Positions 15,832 through 27,166 of a stretch of 64,000 nt of DNA are shown here, in pieces (within the stretch, counting starts at the first letter, position 1; every line of letters starts with the position of its first letter). The DNA is taken from contig NZ_AP017560.1 of assembly GCF_003967015.1 (NCBI RefSeq), forward strand, positions 868,001 to 932,000. The letters are read 5' to 3'. The translations under genes were made by a program, and so were the position numbers. This stretch comes from Pseudanabaena sp. ABRG5-3. GTDB taxonomy: Bacteria > Cyanobacteriota > Cyanobacteriia > Pseudanabaenales > Pseudanabaenaceae. The notes beneath the pieces are model-generated. The model saw nothing but the letters and a program-made list of their open reading frames with translations, had not been told where the DNA came from and searched no databases.

Positions 15832-16783
15832 AGACCTCTTGCAGAACTGAAATTACGACTGTGGAGAGGAAGTTTTAGAGGTAGGAAGAGCAACTTCAAA
15901 GTTATAAATGGCAGCAATCAAATTACAACGTAAACCAAAACGACGACGGCGGTTACGATAAGGCAAAGAAAGAATTTTAAAAATCTTCAGACGACGATTA
16001 ACATGCTCAATCGCAATGCGTTGACGAGCAAGTTGGCGATTAAACTGCTTATCTTCCTTGGATAAAGAGCCATTTTTAGGTTTTTTGATAGGAATTAGGG
16101 AGTTGGGATGCAAATTTTGTAAACCTTGATAACCCTTATCCGCTAAACCTTGTGTCTGCTCGTGAAAACGAACCCCACTAGCTTTGAATAACGAAAAATC
16201 GTGCTGTTTGCCATTCCCGTAAGCGGTACAAATAATCTTGAGATCAGTCAGATTGAGTACCAGTTGAGCTTTGATGGCATGAAGCTTTTTCTTGCCACTA
16301 TAAAAATGTTTCTGGTGATGTATGGGACGTTCAACCTTTACCTCAGTTACATCAATGGCAATTAGGGCAGGAGGTTGCTCCTGCCACAATGACTTTTTTC
16401 CCGCTAACCGAAACTTCTCTGATTTAATTAAGACATTTTCTACTTTTTTGACAGTGCGGCAGATCGTTGATTCTGATACCTCCCAATCGTTAGCGATATG
16501 AAAATAGGGGCGATATTCGCGCCAATACTGCAAAGTAACTAAGATTTGATCTTCGAGACTTAGTTTGGCTTTCACCCCTCCTTTTCCTTTTCTTTTACTT
16601 TTGGCTGCTTGTTGCATTATTTCTATCATTTGCGCAAATGTTTCTCTTTTTACGCCAAATAAGCGTTTAAATTCTTCTCTTGATAGATTTTGACTTGCTT
16701 CGTATTTCATCGCTTATTTTTAGGACTAATGTAAAATTTCAAAGCCCACAAATCTAACATATTTTCGGTTCTGCAAGAGGTCT
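15832..16783 (-). mobile_element. IS5-superfamily insertion sequence, 952 bp
   Basis: Ends are inverted: AGACCTCTTGCAGAAC at both termini (16 identical bases, then one mismatch and GAAA). ATT direct repeats lie at 15829-15831 and 16784-16786. It carries a single full-length transposase gene. The 3-bp ANT-type duplication and transposase type fit the ISL2 group of IS5 elements as I know it. The ORF is intact, so it may still be active. Confidence 0.9.
15853..16710 (-). CDS. IS5-family DDE transposase
   Basis: 285-aa transposase of the single-ORF insertion sequence. An N-terminal helix-turn-helix-like part (LSLEDQILVTLQYWREYRPY, then WEVSESTICRTVKKVEN) is followed by a DDE nuclease domain: first Asp in LIAIDVTEVKVERP, second Asp in LADKGYQGLQ, Glu in IAIEHVNRRLKIF. 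HFYSGKKKLHAIKAQ between them is typical of the DDE_Tnp_4/IS5-like group. No frameshift or internal stop. Confidence 0.92.
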   Translation of the reverse strand: MKYEASQNLSREEFKRLFGVKRETFAQMIEIMQQAAKSKRKGKGGVKAKLSLEDQILVTLQYWREYRPYFHIANDWEVSESTICRTVKKVENVLIKSEKFRLAGKKSLWQEQPPALIAIDVTEVKVERPIHHQKHFYSGKKKLHAIKAQLVLNLTDLKIICTAYGNGKQHDFSLFKASGVRFHEQTQGLADKGYQGLQNLHPNSLIPIKKPKNGSLSKEDKQFNRQLARQRIAIEHVNRRLKIFKILSLPYRNRRRRFGLRCNLIAAIYNFEVALPTSKTSSPQS

Positions 16784-19013: not shown

Positions 19014-19597
19014 TACAGCAACTTTGGTACATGGTTGGTCAAAATAAGAGTCTGATCTAGCAATCCTGCGTTAATTGTGATATTTAGTATTAATCTCAAT
19101 TTCCATCTATAACAGTTGACTGAAAAGTAACAAAGTTCTTGTTTAACTTCTCAGTACAATTTTTATCCAGCAAATACATGTAGTAAATGCTTGAGTATGA
19201 TGGCAATAGTTATACAATGTTTTTAGTAGTGCGCGTCTAGTAGTAAATTATAGTGATTTTGCCGTAAGCATAGGTAAATGTCAAAATCAAAAATTACCAA
19301 AACCAATTGTTAGGTTCTTAATATTTTTGGCGGATCTTCGACAAACTAAAAAATATTAAAACCTTATCCTAAGGAAAATGACTTACCTTAGAACACCTGC
19401 AATTGTGGTTCCTAAAATTTTTGCAAGGTTTATCTTAGCCTTTTACCCCAAAAATTTAGGGTGATGTTTTCATTATAACAAAATGAACTTTTTGATAGAT
19501 TTTTAAGTCATTCCTTAAGTCATCTTTATTTAATTAGTATAATGTTAATCAAACCTTAGGTTTGAGATATTTTACTGTTGCTGAGGAATATATCGAT
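19014..19597. other. AT-rich spacer upstream of the 19598 gene
   Basis: No gene seen. It contains an inverted TTAATATTTTT/AAAAAATATTAA pair (about 19319-19361), two copies of AAGTCAT near 19505-19520 and a -10-like TATAAT at 19538-19543, about 55 nt before the ATG. No HIP1 site noticed here. Confidence 0.45.
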
Positions 19598-20962
19598 ATG
19601 GCACAGTTTTATAATAACTATGAATCTGGAAATTCCCACGAACAAATTACAGATATAACTTCGAGTAGTCTTGAGCAAGCTCAGCAACATATCTATAATT
19701 TTTTTCTAGGCATTATCAAGCATTATCAGGCTGATGATGTCCTAAATCAATTTGAAAAATTATTTATTAAATATGAAGAAATTGATAGTGTTAAAGCCTA
19801 TTATGCCCTAGGTGAAATCATATTTTATAACAAAGAAGATGAGTTTAAAAATACACTTCTTCGCTGTTGCTATATCCTTAATAATAATTGGGCAATCAAT
19901 GGCAATATTAATCTTTGTCATCGATTAGTTGATCTTTTTTTGTCAAATTCTATTGGTATCCCAACTCGTATTCATAAACTTAAAAAGTTAAGAGAATGGC
20001 TCCAAAGATTTGTTCGATCTGAAGAATATAATACCTTGCGATCGCTTTCAGGTAGAGCAGGGGTAAGCAAGAGTTATCATAATTGGTCTGAGCGGTTTTC
20101 TGCTTATCTATTGACTTCAGAATACACAGATTGTAATAAACCAATCGAACAACGCCAATATGCCGAAACTTTGGCTCGCAAAGTCAAACGACAATTTAAG
20201 TTTGATTTGGCAATGTATACGGCACGGATTGACTCCAATCCAAATATTAACCCCCATCGTCCAAATCCTACGACATTAGGAGATGGTGTCCTGATCTTAA
20301 TCAAGAGGGTATTAAATAAACAGGGACATGAAGACTTGAGGTCTGTTGCCAAAAGATTTCGTCGTCAAATGAGTGATATGACTTTAGCGGAATTTAAAGA
20401 TCATCTCCTCTCATACTTAGGGATTTCACGGGATGACTTAGATATTCCTGAGGTGATGCGCTTAACTGTTGTGGAAAAGTTAAAGCATTTTCAAGAACAT
20501 CAAGATGAGGAATCAATTACGCTTAGTTCAATACATGTAGTGTGCAATCGTGTTTTGCAATATCTTTTGTTAAATGAGCGTCGTCACCCCTCTGACTTTT
20601 TGCAATTATCCTTGGAAAGTAATAACTTTCTTGGCTATGTGATTTTATTGCTTAAGGTTGTATTGATATGCCCTAGGAGTCGCTTGTATTTAGAAAGTTA
20701 TATCGCAGAATTAATTAAGTTCTACAGTTCTTATGATGAAGTGGAATGTCGTTCTTTTATTAACTTTTTAGATGTTGTAAATGTTACCCTAGCAATATTT
20801 GATGAGGATACTGACTATAGTTTGGTGAAAATGCGAAATCTTGAAACTGATTTTCCCGATGTAAATTTAGACAACTATCGTGTTTTCTCGCAATCAAAGA
20901 AATTAGTTGATTTAGCAAATAAACCACCTAGTTCACAGGATACGAAAACTTTGATTTCCTAA
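19598..20962 (+). CDS. Large hypothetical protein, helical, no recognised domain
   Basis: 454-aa protein (MAQFYNNYESGNSHEQITDI at the start). The ATG at 19598 is supported by GAGGAA about 9 nt upstream; the frame extends 12 codons to a TTG with no such signal. The sequence is mostly helical and leucine-rich, with a basic central part (ARKVKRQFKFDLAMY; RRQMSDMTLAEFKDHLLSYL). A hydrophobic stretch, NNFLGYVILLLKVVLI, could be buried or membrane-associated. I cannot assign a family. The long AT-rich upstream region sets it apart from neighbours. Confidence 0.7.
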   Translation: MAQFYNNYESGNSHEQITDITSSSLEQAQQHIYNFFLGIIKHYQADDVLNQFEKLFIKYEEIDSVKAYYALGEIIFYNKEDEFKNTLLRCCYILNNNWAINGNINLCHRLVDLFLSNSIGIPTRIHKLKKLREWLQRFVRSEEYNTLRSLSGRAGVSKSYHNWSERFSAYLLTSEYTDCNKPIEQRQYAETLARKVKRQFKFDLAMYTARIDSNPNINPHRPNPTTLGDGVLILIKRVLNKQGHEDLRSVAKRFRRQMSDMTLAEFKDHLLSYLGISRDDLDIPEVMRLTVVEKLKHFQEHQDEESITLSSIHVVCNRVLQYLLLNERRHPSDFLQLSLESNNFLGYVILLLKVVLICPRSRLYLESYIAELIKFYSSYDEVECRSFINFLDVVNVTLAIFDEDTDYSLVKMRNLETDFPDVNLDNYRVFSQSKKLVDLANKPPSSQDTKTLIS

Positions 20963-22149: not shown

Positions 22150-22190
22150 ATGAAGGCAATTCCTTGTTTACATTTCTTTACGTTTAACTA

Positions 22191-22439
22191 TATAGCAATC
22201 CTCAATCATTTTGAGATCTCTAACGTTGGGTAAAGAGAGCATCCGCAGGGTATACCAATTGAAAATTTCTATAGTAATCCTCAATGGATGATGAGAAAAA
22301 GGCATCTACATCAATTCCTAAAATCCTATCAATTATTAAGCAACTATAGGCAATCCTAAATAGTTTGTGGAAGCTCACTCCGAAGGGATGCGCTTCCACA
22401 AACTAAAAAAATCTACAAATGATTTGAGGCTGCTATATC
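22191..22439. repeat. Composite inverted-repeat element with TCACTCC-loop hairpin
   Basis: Outer arms TATAGCAATCCTCAATCATT (22191) and AATGATTTGAGGCTGCTATA (to 22439) are near-complementary. Inside, TAGTTTGTGGAAGC (22361-22374) pairs exactly with 22392-22405 around a loop with TCACTCCGAAGGG. Preceded by AATCCTAAATAG, as in the 18959 element. Located in the divergent spacer before the porin gene. Confidence 0.7.
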
Positions 22440-22644
22440 AAGCAATGAATTAGGATGAAAATGATAGATTTCTTAATTAATTTCACTGATTCTTTTTTTG
22501 TATTCTTAATGTACAATACGTGCAAATATTTTATTTTTAAACAAGCAGGATACTAAGGGGTGAAAAACATAGCTTCAAACCTATAGGGATCATTCTTATT
22601 ACTGTGCTTTGCTAGATTATTGTGAGTTTGTGGAGGCGGCTCAT

Positions 22645-24432
22645 ATGAATTATAGAGTTTATGTAGATAGACAAATATTGTTGCAGCTATTCGCATCTTC
22701 TTGGCAGGTTTTGCTACTTTTTACTTTGTCTATAATAGGATTTGATACAAATGCGATCGCTCAGACTAAATCAAAGCTGAACAACGATCAAATTAGTAAT
22801 CAAAAGGATGTCTCAAAATCTCAGATTACAGGAAAAGTAAATCTTCAAAACTCTCTGGTAAATCTCCAAGATTCTTCAAATATTGTTGTTTCTCCAAATG
22901 AAAATGCTGATACAAATATCTCGCAATCAGTGACATCGGTTTCTCAATTGAGTGATGTGCGATCGACGGACTGGGCATTTACGGCTTTGCAATCTTTGGT
23001 CGAACGTTATGGATGTGTTGCGGGTTATCCCGATTATAAATTTCGTGGTCAACAAGCTATTTCACGTTATGAATTTGCGGCAGGTTTAAATGCTTGCTTA
23101 GATAAAATTAATGAAGTCATTGCGACAGGTCTATCAGATAAAGCCGATAAAGAAGATCTTGCAACTATCCAAAAACTTCAAGAAGAATTTGCAACGGAGT
23201 TATCTGCTTTGCGTGGTCGGATAAATACTCTAGACTCAAAAACCACTGCCTTAGAAGCACAGCAATTTTCGACAACAACCAAACTCTTCGGTCAGGCAAT
23301 CTTTGGGTTGCAGGGGCGTTTTGGCAATACGGCTGATATTTTCCCGCGAGATGGTATTCGGACAGTAGGTGAAGTTGATCAAGGCACAAATCTAACTTTT
23401 GGCTATAACTTGGGACTCACATTCCTCACTCAGTTTGATTCCTTCAATCGCAGCATTCTCCTTGTGGGATTAAGTTCGGGTAATTTAGCTATTAATTCAG
23501 GGTTGCCATTGCGAGATAGTTACACATTACTGGGATATGAGGGAACGACTGCTAATCAAATCACTCTGTCCGATCTCTCCTATCGGTTTAAAGTTAGTAA
23601 TAATGCTGCTTTCATTATTGGTGCGGCTGGAGTTAGCCCTAGTGCTGTATTTCGTGGTCCTAATCGTGTGGAAAGTTCAGGAACTGGGCCAATTTCCGCC
23701 TTTGCTCAGCGCAACCCGATTTTAGGACTTGGTGCGGGTAGTGCAGGGATCGGGTTTGACTGGCAGATCAGCGATCGCATTAGTTTGCAGGGTGTATATG
23801 CCGCAGGTGATCCTGCTAATCCTACTACGGGAGGACTGACGGGTGGTTCGTATGTTACAGGGTTACAAGCTACGCTGATGCCAACGGACTCGATTGATAC
23901 AGCGCTTTATTACCTGCATTCATACACGACAACTGGCTCCCTCAATACTGGAATTGGCGATAGTGTAATTGGTCTGGGCTCAAGTTTTTTAACTGATGCG
24001 ATCGGAGCAACTCTCAACTGGCGGATTAGTCCCTATGTAACTTTAGGCACATGGGGTGGCTATACCAAATCTAATGCGGTTATTGGTGCTTCGGGTACGG
24101 TGGAAACTACGAACTGGATGGTCTATTTGAACTTTCCTGATCTGTTTAAGCAAGGGAATCTGGGGGGGATTTATATTGGACAACCGCCCAAAATTACGAG
24201 TAGTAATTTATCAATCGGTAATGTCCCTAGTTTTCTAAATAGTGCGGGATTTGCTAGCGAAGTAGCAGGTTCACAACCAGCTAGCACAACCCATCTAGAA
24301 CTTTTCTATGTACATCGACTGACCGATCGCATCAGCATTACCCCTGGGCTGATCTTTTTGTTTAATCCTCTTCAGACCTCAACAAGTGACACAGTCACGA
24401 TTGGCACAATTCGCACGACTTTCTCATTCTAA
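22645..24432 (+). CDS. SLH-domain OprB-type porin (iron uptake porin)
   Basis: Outer-membrane porin (about 595 aa) of the cyanobacterial iron-uptake/OprB type. An N-terminal signal segment ends near AIAQ. Then come a Ser/Asn-rich linker, an SLH domain (VRSTDWAFTALQSLVERYGC, followed by RGQQAISRYEFAAGLNACL) that anchors to peptidoglycan, a coiled coil (KADKEDLATIQKLQEEFATE) and a C-terminal beta-barrel ending in IRTTFSF with a terminal Phe. The ATG at 22645 with GGAGG 8 nt before it is preferred over an upstream TTG/GTG-type start. The CHAT gene follows 44 bp later. Confidence 0.9.
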   Translation: MNYRVYVDRQILLQLFASSWQVLLLFTLSIIGFDTNAIAQTKSKLNNDQISNQKDVSKSQITGKVNLQNSLVNLQDSSNIVVSPNENADTNISQSVTSVSQLSDVRSTDWAFTALQSLVERYGCVAGYPDYKFRGQQAISRYEFAAGLNACLDKINEVIATGLSDKADKEDLATIQKLQEEFATELSALRGRINTLDSKTTALEAQQFSTTTKLFGQAIFGLQGRFGNTADIFPRDGIRTVGEVDQGTNLTFGYNLGLTFLTQFDSFNRSILLVGLSSGNLAINSGLPLRDSYTLLGYEGTTANQITLSDLSYRFKVSNNAAFIIGAAGVSPSAVFRGPNRVESSGTGPISAFAQRNPILGLGAGSAGIGFDWQISDRISLQGVYAAGDPANPTTGGLTGGSYVTGLQATLMPTDSIDTALYYLHSYTTTGSLNTGIGDSVIGLGSSFLTDAIGATLNWRISPYVTLGTWGGYTKSNAVIGASGTVETTNWMVYLNFPDLFKQGNLGGIYIGQPPKITSSNLSIGNVPSFLNSAGFASEVAGSQPASTTHLELFYVHRLTDRISITPGLIFLFNPLQTSTSDTVTIGTIRTTFSF

Positions 24433-24476
24433 AAAATGGATTCTGAAAAATAGAGCAAAGTAGTAGAGCAAAGTTT

Positions 24477-25916
24477 ATGAAAATACGTTCGTTGATTTGG
24501 AAAACTGGATGTGCGGTTGTAATTGGCGTAATTTGCAGTGTTGCGCCCTCCTCTGTACCGAGGAGTACTGCCCAATATGGACCGCCTATTCCTCCTATTA
24601 GTCCTTCTCCCAGCAGTAGTTACAGTCCTACTCCCCTAGTGCCGCCGATTGGTTTCCCGACTAGCCCACCTGGAGTACTTTGCGATCGCTTAACAAACAC
24701 AATATGTAGTGGTACTCCTCCTACTCCTAATGTGCCTAGCATCGGTGATCTAGATAACAAAATAAGTAGAGAACTGTGTTCCTATGCAAAGTGTTCGACA
24801 CCTGTGCCAGTCACTCTTGCATTTGTTCAAGATGCACTACAAAGGTCAGCACAGGTTACAGATAGTGCCACTGCTTTGGTTTACCCCAATATTTTTCCTG
24901 ATCGTATAGAGATTTTAATCGTGCCGTCTTCAGGGAAAGAAATCCGTAAAGTTGTTCCCAATGTACAAAGTTCCGAAGTAACTGAAACAGTACAAGAATT
25001 TCTAAATTCTTTGCGTGATTCTAGTAATGATGATTACTTACCCCTAGCACAGAAGCTCTATAACTGGATAATCCGACCAATAGATGAAGATTTACAGTCA
25101 GAGGGAATCAAAACTCTAATTTTTGTGATGGATGGTTCTTTAAGGTCGATTCCGATTAGTGCTTTGCATGATGGTAATAAATTCGTAGTTCAGAAATATG
25201 CCACAGCAACCATCCCATCAATGGGTTTGGTTAATTTACAGTTACGCGATCGCCGCCGTTCGAGCATACTTATTATGGGATTGACTCAAGCCCAGCAAGG
25301 ATTTACGGCTTTGCCGAATGTGGAAGTTGAAACTAAGGTAATCGCCTCAAAGATTTTGCAAGGCAATCTGTTTCTCAATCAAGACTTTACGATTGAAAAT
25401 CTCAAGAATCAGCAAAGTAAAAACAACTATGGAATTGTTCATTTAGCGACTCATGCGCAATTTTTGAGCGATAACATTGATGGTGCTTTTATTCAATTTT
25501 GGAATGAACGGCTTTATCTTAACAATCTTCGTACAATTAGATTGGGAGAAGAGCCAATTGAAATGCTGACATTGAGTGCCTGTGAGACCGCAGTGGGGAA
25601 AAACTTAGGGCTTAGTGGTATGGCTCTTGTATATAAATCTAAGAGTGTACTTGCCTCACTATGGACAGTTAGTGATGCAGGCACTACGCCCTTGATGTTG
25701 TCTTTTTACAGTTATTACCCAACTTCTAAGAGTAAGGCGATCGCAATTCAGCAAGCGCAATTAAATTTATTAGAAGGAAAAGTACGGATTGAATCTGGAC
25801 AGATCAAGGGAGTTGGTAAATTACCTACAATTCCTCTTAATCAGGTTACAGGTGATATTGATCTCAAGCATCCGTACTTTTGGTCTTCCTTTGTTTTAGT
25901 GGGAAATTGGCTCTAA
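24477..25916 (+). CDS. Secreted CHAT-domain protease-like protein
   Basis: 479 aa. An N-terminal hydrophobic signal (TGCAVVIGVICSVAPSSV) is followed by a Pro/Ser-rich stretch (about 35-70) and a C-terminal caspase-like CHAT domain (about 190-475). Catalytic residues are visible as His in GIVHLATHAQFL and Cys in LTLSACETAVG; MDGSLRSIPISAL and KSVLASLWTVSD are also typical. Unusually it has no TPR repeats, which most cyanobacterial CHAT proteins carry, and it is predicted to act outside the cytoplasm. It forms a likely operon with the porin and is followed by a strong terminator. Substrate unknown. Confidence 0.87.
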   Translation: MKIRSLIWKTGCAVVIGVICSVAPSSVPRSTAQYGPPIPPISPSPSSSYSPTPLVPPIGFPTSPPGVLCDRLTNTICSGTPPTPNVPSIGDLDNKISRELCSYAKCSTPVPVTLAFVQDALQRSAQVTDSATALVYPNIFPDRIEILIVPSSGKEIRKVVPNVQSSEVTETVQEFLNSLRDSSNDDYLPLAQKLYNWIIRPIDEDLQSEGIKTLIFVMDGSLRSIPISALHDGNKFVVQKYATATIPSMGLVNLQLRDRRRSSILIMGLTQAQQGFTALPNVEVETKVIASKILQGNLFLNQDFTIENLKNQQSKNNYGIVHLATHAQFLSDNIDGAFIQFWNERLYLNNLRTIRLGEEPIEMLTLSACETAVGKNLGLSGMALVYKSKSVLASLWTVSDAGTTPLMLSFYSYYPTSKSKAIAIQQAQLNLLEGKVRIESGQIKGVGKLPTIPLNQVTGDIDLKHPYFWSSFVLVGNWL

Positions 25917-25949
25917 AAAAAGACCCACGCTTAGCGTGGGTCTTTTTTT
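25915..25949. terminator. Intrinsic terminator after the CHAT gene
   Basis: Stem AGACCCACGC / GCGTGGGTCT with loop TTA, A6 before and T8 after. Works on both strands, so it also serves the minus-strand tRNA gene. Confidence 0.9.
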
Positions 25950-25952
25950 TAA

Positions 25953-26039
25953 CGGAGAGAGAGGGATTCGAACCCTCGTTAAAGTTTCCCCTAAACAGCA
26001 TTTCCAGTGCTGCGCCTTCAACCACTCGGCCATCTCTCC
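25953..26039 (-). tRNA. tRNA-Ser (anticodon GGA)
   Basis: 87-nt cloverleaf on the minus strand. Acceptor GGAGAGA (26033-26039) pairs with TCTCTCC (25954-25960); discriminator G at 25953. D-arm GCCGAGTGGTTGAAGGC; anticodon stem CAGCA/TGCTG with loop CTGGAAA and anticodon GGA (26003-26005); a long variable arm as expected for Ser; T-arm GAGGGTTCGAATCCCTC. The CCA end is not encoded. Confidence 0.96.
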
Positions 26040-26158
26040 TCGCTTAATGTAACAGCAACTTTAAATAAGTTACTTATTTCATCGTGCGGATTTTAATCAT
26101 ACCAAAGCTTGGTACATATGCAAGAGTTGGAATCGTAAAAAAGCAAATTTTTTTGATA

Positions 26159-26194
26159 GTTTTTTTGTTTGCCCATATGGGCAAACAAAAAAAC
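26159..26194. terminator. Terminator of the fcl gene
   Basis: Perfect 16-bp palindrome GTTTTTTTGTTTGCCC with its complement around ATAT, ending exactly at the fcl stop; T-rich on the minus transcript. Confidence 0.8.
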
Positions 26195-27166
26195 TTATGT
26201 AGCGTGTTGGCGATACCAAGCGATCGTCTGGTTTAAACCTTGGCGAAAATCTACCTGTGCTGTGAATCCAAATGACTGCTTAGCGCGTTCGACATCAAGG
26301 CAACGGCGAGGTTGACCATTTGGCTTGTCTGTTTCCCAGACAATCTTGCCATCGTAGCCCATTAGCTCGGCAATCAAATGAATCAAGTCCTTGATCGAAA
26401 TTTCAGAACCTGTGCCAATATTGACAGGCTCAGATTCGTTATAAAGGGCTGATGCAAGGGTAATACCGCGTGCGGCATCCTCAGAATAGACAAACTCTCT
26501 CGTAGGTGTACCATCACCCCATACCGAAATAGTGCGATCGCCTCTTTGTTGAGCTTCATGAACCTTGCGAATCAGTGCAGGAATTACATGGGAGCTACGG
26601 GGATCAAAATTATCTTCAGGTCCATATAGGTTTACGGGCAGGAGATAAATGCCATTAAACCCATATTGCTGACGATAGGACTGTAACTGTACTAGCAGAG
26701 CTTTTTTGGCTACGCCGTAGGGGGCATTGGTAACTTCAGGATAACCATTCCAAAGATCTGATTCTTTAAATGGTACTGGGGTGAAGTTGGGATAGGCGCA
26801 GATCGTACCAACACAGACAAATTTCTGCACACCTGCTTGATAGGCGGCATGAATTAACTGTACGCCCATCATGAGATTATCGTAGAAAAGTTCTGCTGGT
26901 TTTTCACGGTTGAGTCCAATGCCACCAACATGCGCTGCAAGATGAATAATGAGATTTTGTTCTTGAACGACTTTTTCACAAACCGCTAGCGATCGCAAAT
27001 CATGATCTTTTGACCTTGGGACAGTGATCAAATCTGGGTTAGCGCCTGCGGCGACTAGTTGGGCAATTACCTGCTTACCTAAAAAGCCAGCACCACCAGT
27101 GACGAGAATCTTCTGATCTTTAAATTGATCTTGCTGTAGTTGAGAATTGGTTTGAGTTTCTGGCAT
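26195..27166 (-). CDS. fcl: GDP-L-fucose synthase
   Basis: Epimerase-reductase making GDP-L-fucose from GDP-4-keto-6-deoxymannose (323 aa). NAD(P)-binding ILVTGGAGFLGKQV, then AAHVGGIGLNREKPAEL, SSTCIYP-like VGTICAYPNFTPVPF and the catalytic YxxxK in APYGVAKKALL. The ATG at 27166 (MPETQTNSQLQQ) is chosen; the open frame continues upstream into the gmd terminator and gmd itself and has no start signal there. It lies after gmd, the usual order. Confidence 0.92.
   Translation of the reverse strand: MPETQTNSQLQQDQFKDQKILVTGGAGFLGKQVIAQLVAAGANPDLITVPRSKDHDLRSLAVCEKVVQEQNLIIHLAAHVGGIGLNREKPAELFYDNLMMGVQLIHAAYQAGVQKFVCVGTICAYPNFTPVPFKESDLWNGYPEVTNAPYGVAKKALLVQLQSYRQQYGFNGIYLLPVNLYGPEDNFDPRSSHVIPALIRKVHEAQQRGDRTISVWGDGTPTREFVYSEDAARGITLASALYNESEPVNIGTGSEISIKDLIHLIAELMGYDGKIVWETDKPNGQPRRCLDVERAKQSFGFTAQVDFRQGLNQTIAWYRQHAT

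Follow-up and report, generated by a model that had tools for sequence, protein, structure and literature searches.

Csx29 and separase, the solved CHAT proteases that best match the protein described here, act inside cells, separase being a eukaryotic, intracellular enzyme, and the gingipains are secreted. Csx29 combines a pseudo-CHAT with an active CHAT, the first lobe of its CHAT region being a pseudo-caspase (PMC10028731), and modelling of separase has P1-Arg read by an acidic residue after the first strand and by an Asp at a helix start (PMC4626109). HetF of Anabaena is a putative CHAT protease whose function is abolished by active-site mutation and which is membrane-anchored, part of the divisome and tied to the cell-wall division machinery (PMC8406250). 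The open-access articles on cyanobacterial CHAT domains, most subscription journals being outside this scope, treat HetF, conflict systems and tables from annotation or proteomics, and so far as their text is accessible none describes an exported CHAT protein. SLH/OprB proteins of Synechocystis influence vesicle release and iron uptake (PMC8707739). Here we analyse a window, that is, a whole stretch of 64,000 nt of Pseudanabaena sp. ABRG5-3 (NZ_AP017560.1, positions 868,001 to 932,000), in which the gene of a CHAT-domain protein with a predicted export leader directly follows that of a SomB-type SLH/OprB porin.

Our comparisons indicate that this porin–CHAT pair is a real, lineage-limited unit, in which a CHAT protein of a broad, leader-bearing group is combined with a porin partner. 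The protease most likely works in the envelope, and the porin is its first candidate partner, although a putative one. An earlier note on this DNA had placed the two genes at 22645-25916, the CHAT gene starting 44 bp after the SLH/OprB porin gene, and these coordinates proved exact. The locus comprises the following features.

22645-24432, + strand: SomB-type SLH/OprB outer-membrane porin, 595 aa (Pfam SLH and OprB; NCBIfam por_somb)
24433-24476, + strand: porin–CHAT gap of 44 nt without terminator structure (fold against shuffles)
24477-25916, + strand: CHAT-domain protein, 479 aa, apparently exported, no TPR match (Pfam CHAT)
24477-24572, + strand: export-type leader of the CHAT protein, residues 1-32, STA/Q junction by eye (sequence; Q33 invariant in 13/13)
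24573-24674, + strand: Pro/Ser-rich spacer of the CHAT protein, about residues 33-66, fast evolving (dN/dS; pLDDT)
24681-24794, + strand: four-cysteine module of the CHAT protein, C69, C77, C101 and C106 (kept in 11/14 short CHATs)
25041-25907, + strand: CHAT domain, residues 189-477, with His326/Cys369 and acidic Glu285/Asp400 (Pfam; invariant in 17/17)
25915-25949, + strand: intrinsic terminator directly 3' of the CHAT gene (fold -23.4 kcal/mol, z -6.74)

Conservation of the porin–CHAT pair

The CHAT search covered 38 genomes of the family, 26 of them of the genus and the source genome included, and returned 13 further short copies (56-90% identity) in nine other genus genomes; in each of these nine, according to the porin search, the gene immediately upstream of CHAT codes for a porin of 66-94% identity. 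Counting the source genome and taking the longest frames, there are 11 porin–CHAT pairs in 10 of the 26 genus genomes, with both genes on the same strand and gaps of 6-56 bp, and 11 of the 14 CHAT copies of the clade are paired. One genome, G032, carries two pairs with a third CHAT gene between them, and G014 and G013 each carry one pair and one porin-less CHAT. Conservation of the pair, on which the earlier note had made its proposal depend, was thus found.

At the other porins of the genus, a CHAT neighbour was found at none of 33 loci, which comprise all 31 further porins listed with at least 54% identity and a further two with 45-47%; at one of these loci (L201) the contig stops 94 bases after the porin, and the downstream side is unseen. 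In the porin tree (43 rows), the 11 paired porins form one side of a branch, with support of 100/100, against 32 others, and the same branch is obtained with 19 other porins; a porin split into two frames (L179) was left out of both trees, its locus being counted among the 33. All 11 porins of the paired clade have a CHAT partner. The 14 CHAT copies group together (100/99), and their tree branches in the main as the porin tree does, with (G026,(G025,G012)) followed by G024 and after it by the others; the copies of G018 and G032 are placed differently in the two trees. Pairwise porin and CHAT distances correlate at 0.96 (45 pairs from 10 copies, G013 left out).

In the source genome, G029, G024 and G032, the unit is flanked by an alpha/beta hydrolase gene on one side and by fcl and gmd on the other (named by similarity, by eye); in G018, G025, G026 and G012 it adjoins the hydrolase gene, the far side being a contig end (G018, G025) or other genes (G026, G012). 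The hydrolase gene is found in 25 of the 26 genus genomes, and 5 of the 15 genomes that have it and lack the pair (G011, G028, G017, G021, G015) show a clean empty site, with the hydrolase gene beside fcl/gmd; the remaining pair-lacking hydrolase loci have other neighbours or lie on short contigs. G014 and G013, which are near relatives, have the pair at a different locus, where some 200 bp of upstream sequence are alike (by eye), and both keep a porin-less CHAT next to fcl and gmd. At this second locus of G014, a Mutator-family transposase lies two frames away, the intervening frame having no Pfam match.

Rates of nonsynonymous (dN) and synonymous (dS) change between the source genome and G029 give dN/dS of 0.25 for CHAT and 0.21 for the porin; over four comparisons (source/G029, source/G014, G025/G012, G026/G025) the ranges are 0.19-0.25 and 0.12-0.25, respectively. 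Within CHAT, codons 1-110 have dN 0.13 and dS 0.19 between the source genome and G029, and the 369 codons 111-479 have dN 0.028 and dS 0.207. As read from these sequences, both genes are under purifying selection, the CHAT part being held and the leader and spacer freer. Comparison across genomes thus shows porin and CHAT to be adjacent, inherited together and gained or lost together, with the catalytic residues kept under selection.

The porin gene starts at an ATG preceded by a GGAG ribosome site, and the 44-nt gap holds no stable hairpin (-0.3 kcal/mol, a value matched by 197 of 200 shuffles). Behind the CHAT stop codon come a 16-bp stem and a T tract, and fold analysis places terminator structure only there and not in the gap. 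A consensus scanner, whose rule can miss stems that swallow the T tract, returned no terminator in 22150-26200, and a consensus promoter scan of the same interval gave no forward-strand match. A tRNA-Ser gene lies on the opposite strand just past the terminator. Further upstream in the window are a 466-aa frame without Pfam match at E<=1 (19562-20962, + strand), the like of which adjoins the hydrolase gene in the pair loci of 8 of 10 genomes (by eye), and an insertion-sequence-transposase-like frame (15853-16710, - strand, by eye).

Architecture and fold of the CHAT protein

The CHAT protein matches Pfam PF12770 over residues 189-477 (E 6.8e-57; 193.5 bits against a cut-off of 24; model positions 2-289 of 289), and at E<=1 it matches neither a Pfam TPR model nor the two-partner secretion (TPS) domain PF05860. 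His326 and Cys369 are invariant in 13/13 close sequences (alignment A1, which leaves out the near-copy L068) and in 17/17 diverse ones (alignment A2, the window protein and 16 of 17 loci, L093 with its CHAT in two frames being dropped), and Glu285 and Asp400 are likewise invariant in the 17 diverse sequences. The earlier note, which had read a Pro-rich spacer, a catalytic His/Cys pair and no TPRs, is in agreement with these results.

A PDB sequence search with A1 gave no matches at E<=1, and we therefore turned to fold comparison. The model built on A2 has a mean predicted local distance difference test score (pLDDT) of 78.8 and a predicted template-modelling score (pTM) of 0.78, with residues 1-83 at pLDDT under 50. 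Foldseek ranks Csx29 entries at the top (E from 2.6e-16), followed by DdvA (9.1e-10) and separase (1.0e-9). Structure comparison with VIA-align, confined to families ranked by Foldseek, gave Z scores of 27.9 for Csx29, 24.6 for separase, 20.0 for DdvA and 18.6 for gingipain R. The spacing of His326 and Cys369 is 43, the same as that of H615 and C658 in Csx29 (PMC10028731).

In the model, Glu285 lies in helix 281-293, past strand 264-268, and Asp400 starts helix 400-413, past strand 390-394. We infer from this placement, which corresponds by position among strands and helices to that of the acidic residues proposed to read P1-Arg in separase, that the protease may prefer cutting after Arg or Lys.

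Evidence for export

The N-terminus of the CHAT protein shows, by eye, a KIRSLIWK segment, a hydrophobic stretch and an STA/Q junction, and Q33 behind this junction is invariant in 13/13 close CHATs. The protein passes a loose rule-based leader test, at a junction differing from the one assigned by eye. The test is passed by 12 of the 14 short CHATs of the clade, the failures being the orphans of G014 and G013 (L067:5754-7214 and L068:4772-6232), which yet keep the four cysteines. The stretch that the earlier note took for a signal peptide looks like an export-type leader, and export itself is a prediction from sequence, by a rule that 44 of 154 control frames also pass.

All four cysteines (C69, C77, C101, C106) occur in 11 of the 14 short CHATs and none in those of G026, G025 and G012; after the leader, the only other cysteine of the window chain is the catalytic Cys369. 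This pattern fits a module with two disulphides.

The middle CHAT of G032 (L066:9756-11246, - strand), which lies between the two porin–CHAT pairs of that genome, starts with a porin-type leader. Its leader aligns with that of the window porin at a score of 72, the best of 500 shuffles reaching 31. For four of the ten porin leaders compared with this fusion, none of the 500 shuffles scored as well, and for the other six 1 to 305 did; with eight CHAT leaders the number was 3 to 350 of 500. Apparently the porin body was lost here and the porin leader was left on CHAT. Export of the window CHAT is accordingly suggested by its leader, its four-cysteine module and the porin-leader fusion in G032.

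The SomB-type porin

The porin has an SLH domain at residues 103-145 (E 1.4e-06) and an OprB domain at 169-595 (E 1.7e-26), and it matches the NCBIfam model por_somb, "iron uptake porin" (NF033921), with 418.7 bits against a cut-off of 100 over model positions 1-485 of 485. Its Sec-type leader ends in AIA/QT (by eye). Porin processing and an envelope stress response, both put forward in the earlier note, remain proposals. In an alignment of 11 paired and 19 unpaired porins read by eye, pre-SLH linkers are variable in both sets, the SLH and coiled-coil parts are common to both, and cleavage of the paired porin finds no sequence support.

Iron control of the porin was considered and rejected: the Fur-like match upstream of the window gene is equalled by 139 of 300 shuffles, and the best matches to the 19-base Fur consensus in 12 upstream regions are equalled by 43 to 300 of 300 shuffles.

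Other leader-bearing CHAT proteins and alternative explanations

The genome of the window holds 41 CHAT matches, and 18 of the 29 distinct CHAT frames read there pass the leader rule, compared with 44 of 154 control frames. In a phylum survey that scored at most four candidates per genome, 98 of 386 genomes had a CHAT match at E<=1e-50. The leader rule is also passed by 16 of 20 short CHATs from outside the family; one of the four that fail is truncated at the end of its contig. The best matches by E value outside the clade are the C-termini of large frames, and all three that were tested carry a TPS domain. These data suggest that an exported CHAT is not very unusual in cyanobacteria and do not sustain the premise, taken from the earlier note, that a non-cytoplasmic CHAT would be out of the ordinary here.

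Several further CHAT loci were seen in the course of the survey. A second short CHAT of the source genome (L075:5101-6690; contig C1, about 2466 kb) has a leader, 529 aa, no TPR match and no porin among its neighbours (by eye); frames like it, of 474-569 aa and 47-52% identical to the window protein, are among the matches listed for 17 of the 26 genus genomes and for one other. A cluster of 13 CHAT matches lies at about 100-158 kb of contig C2, where the leader rule holds for 4 of the 5 frames read on the minus-strand side and for 1 of the 7 on the plus-strand side. Four distant CHAT relatives tested show TPRs. At L094:3057-7173, L096:3237-7179 and L097:92-4358, which belong to two genomes of Candidatus Accumulibacter and a beta-proteobacterial bin, a ShlB gene stands immediately before a TPR-CHAT gene on the same strand whose start looks leader-like by eye, and at the two Accumulibacter loci a long repetitive frame lies before these genes. 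At L073:6593-11017 (+ strand), a TPS domain, DUF4347 and a C-terminal CHAT form one chain, and a ShlB gene adjoins on the other strand.

TPS or ShlB genes are present within the stretch retrieved at 8 of 9 distant CHAT loci; none of 37 control loci has one, and among 20 short-CHAT loci outside the family 4 do. The 37 controls, all from this genus, span somewhat less sequence, so that both taxon and length differ from the distant loci. The window CHAT could on this basis be one of many exported cyanobacterial CHAT proteases that mature or release exoproteins, the porin being co-expressed and not acted on. The TPS-CHAT architecture of the three tested large frames, the distant loci and the existence of porin-less copies within the clade all agree with this account, which we regard as possible, if somewhat unlikely: TPS and ShlB genes are lacking at the window and 11 clade loci, few of the outside short-CHAT loci have one, and CHAT is kept by all 11 porins of the clade.

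That the two proteins have no functional link, their genes being envelope neighbours that are co-transcribed and move as a unit, appears doubtful. No co-evolving porin feature was found by eye, 3 of the 14 CHAT copies have no porin, and both families are large in the source genome, which has 14 porin matches at E<=1e-60 beside its many CHAT matches. Against this stand the retention of CHAT by every porin of the clade, the second locus included, and the lack of CHAT at the 33 other porin loci.

We consider it very unlikely that the pair is a guard system, in which a periplasmic CHAT senses disturbance of the porin, for example by phage or predator, and triggers damaging proteolysis. CHAT domains do occur in putative conflict systems (PMC10907252, PMC12691664), and the presence of the cassette is patchy. 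A defence role, which the earlier note had also raised, is not borne out by PADLOC, where neither protein matches any family at E<=0.001; no inhibitor or third component was recognised in the unit, and leaders are common among the CHATs of the source genome.

It is extremely improbable that CHAT is a non-catalytic scaffold binding the porin or the cell wall, since His326, Cys369, Glu285 and Asp400 are invariant and codons 111-479 are conserved, although CHAT activity is predicted from sequence and the first CHAT-region lobe is a pseudo-caspase in Csx29 (PMC10028731).

A proposed two-gene envelope cassette

The joint inheritance of porin and CHAT suggests joint work in the cell envelope. The explanation that we tentatively put first, although it may well prove wrong, is that an exported CHAT cysteine endopeptidase and a SomB-type porin form a two-gene cassette that acts in the envelope and adjusts the outer membrane. 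Porin and CHAT would be made from one transcript, and a Sec leader would take each of them across the inner membrane; outside the cytoplasm, disulphides would presumably stabilise the protease. With its separase/Csx29-like core the protease would cut after basic residues; its site of action would be the periplasm or the cell surface, and its targets would be envelope proteins produced together with the porin or close to it. The first candidate partner would be the porin or its peptidoglycan tether, and proteolysis could thereby adjust the outer membrane. Since SLH/OprB proteins affect vesicles and iron uptake in Synechocystis, outer-membrane stability would be a sensible read-out.

Several observations weigh against this explanation. 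Three of the 14 clade CHATs lack a porin immediately upstream; of these three, the copies of G014 and G013 fail the leader test while keeping the four cysteines. The agreement of trees and distances is expected of any two linked genes, and the new position in G014 and G013 counts as one relocation. An adjacent porin is present at 0 of 20 short-CHAT loci outside the family, so that such CHATs can work without a porin; these 20 were chosen among the matches listed, pairs elsewhere in the phylum are possible, and at two of the loci (L103, L104) a porin lies about 5 kb downstream. The paired porins have, by eye, no special linker or cut site. TPS and ShlB genes are absent from the window and from 11 clade loci (9 with pairs, 2 with orphans), and the argument from envelope context therefore fails at the pair itself. 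As for export, the leader test is loose, as its passing control frames illustrate; the cysteine-lacking sequences of G026, G025 and G012 form one clade, so that the cysteine pattern reflects a single event; and the two porin leaders of G032 itself match the fusion weakly, being equalled by 1 and by 305 of 500 shuffles.

A more specific form of the proposal, in which a separase-like protease dedicated to one porin is secreted with it, kept at its side in the periplasm and switched on by a change in the state of the porin, is unlikely. If it were true, extracytoplasmic proteolysis by a dedicated porin protease would control how permeable the outer membrane of cyanobacteria is or how it is tethered. 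With its defined porin, a two-gene unit of this kind offers a tractable partner.

Comparison with described systems

The Synechocystis proteins Slr1841 and Slr1908 have SLH and OprB domains, as does the window porin, which fits por_somb; the accessible text of PMC8707739 mentions no protease partner for them, whereas the porins of the window clade always stand beside a CHAT. HetF has TPRs, one transmembrane segment and a CHAT in residues 1-555 and is set apart from the window CHAT by this description (PMC8406250); neither leader nor porin partner is described for it in the accessible text of that article, whereas the window CHAT has an export-type leader and an adjacent porin gene. The CHATs of the TPS exoproteins, from the same genus, are about 50% identical over residues 110-479, but stand on proteins of 1254-1778 aa (three tested) and are preceded in several by a helical hairpin (by eye), not by four cysteines.

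Among solved structures, gingipains R and K are caspase-fold proteases with Z scores of 18.2-18.6, 8-9% identity and another architecture, and gingipain R binds P1-Arg through an Asp (PMC4626109). DdvA (8rw5; Z 20.0) is a membrane-anchored transmembrane anti-sigma factor. Separase (5fby_A; Z 24.6, 13% identity) has acidic residues in like places, according to the model in PMC4626109. Proteases of the Csx29 type have a Cas7-11 complex as partner. The closest match, Csx29 (7y84_C), superposes with a Z score of 27.9 and a root-mean-square deviation of 2.9 over 318 residues at 13% identity and carries a TPR array, whereas the window CHAT, without TPRs, has a leader, a Pro-rich spacer and a four-cysteine module.

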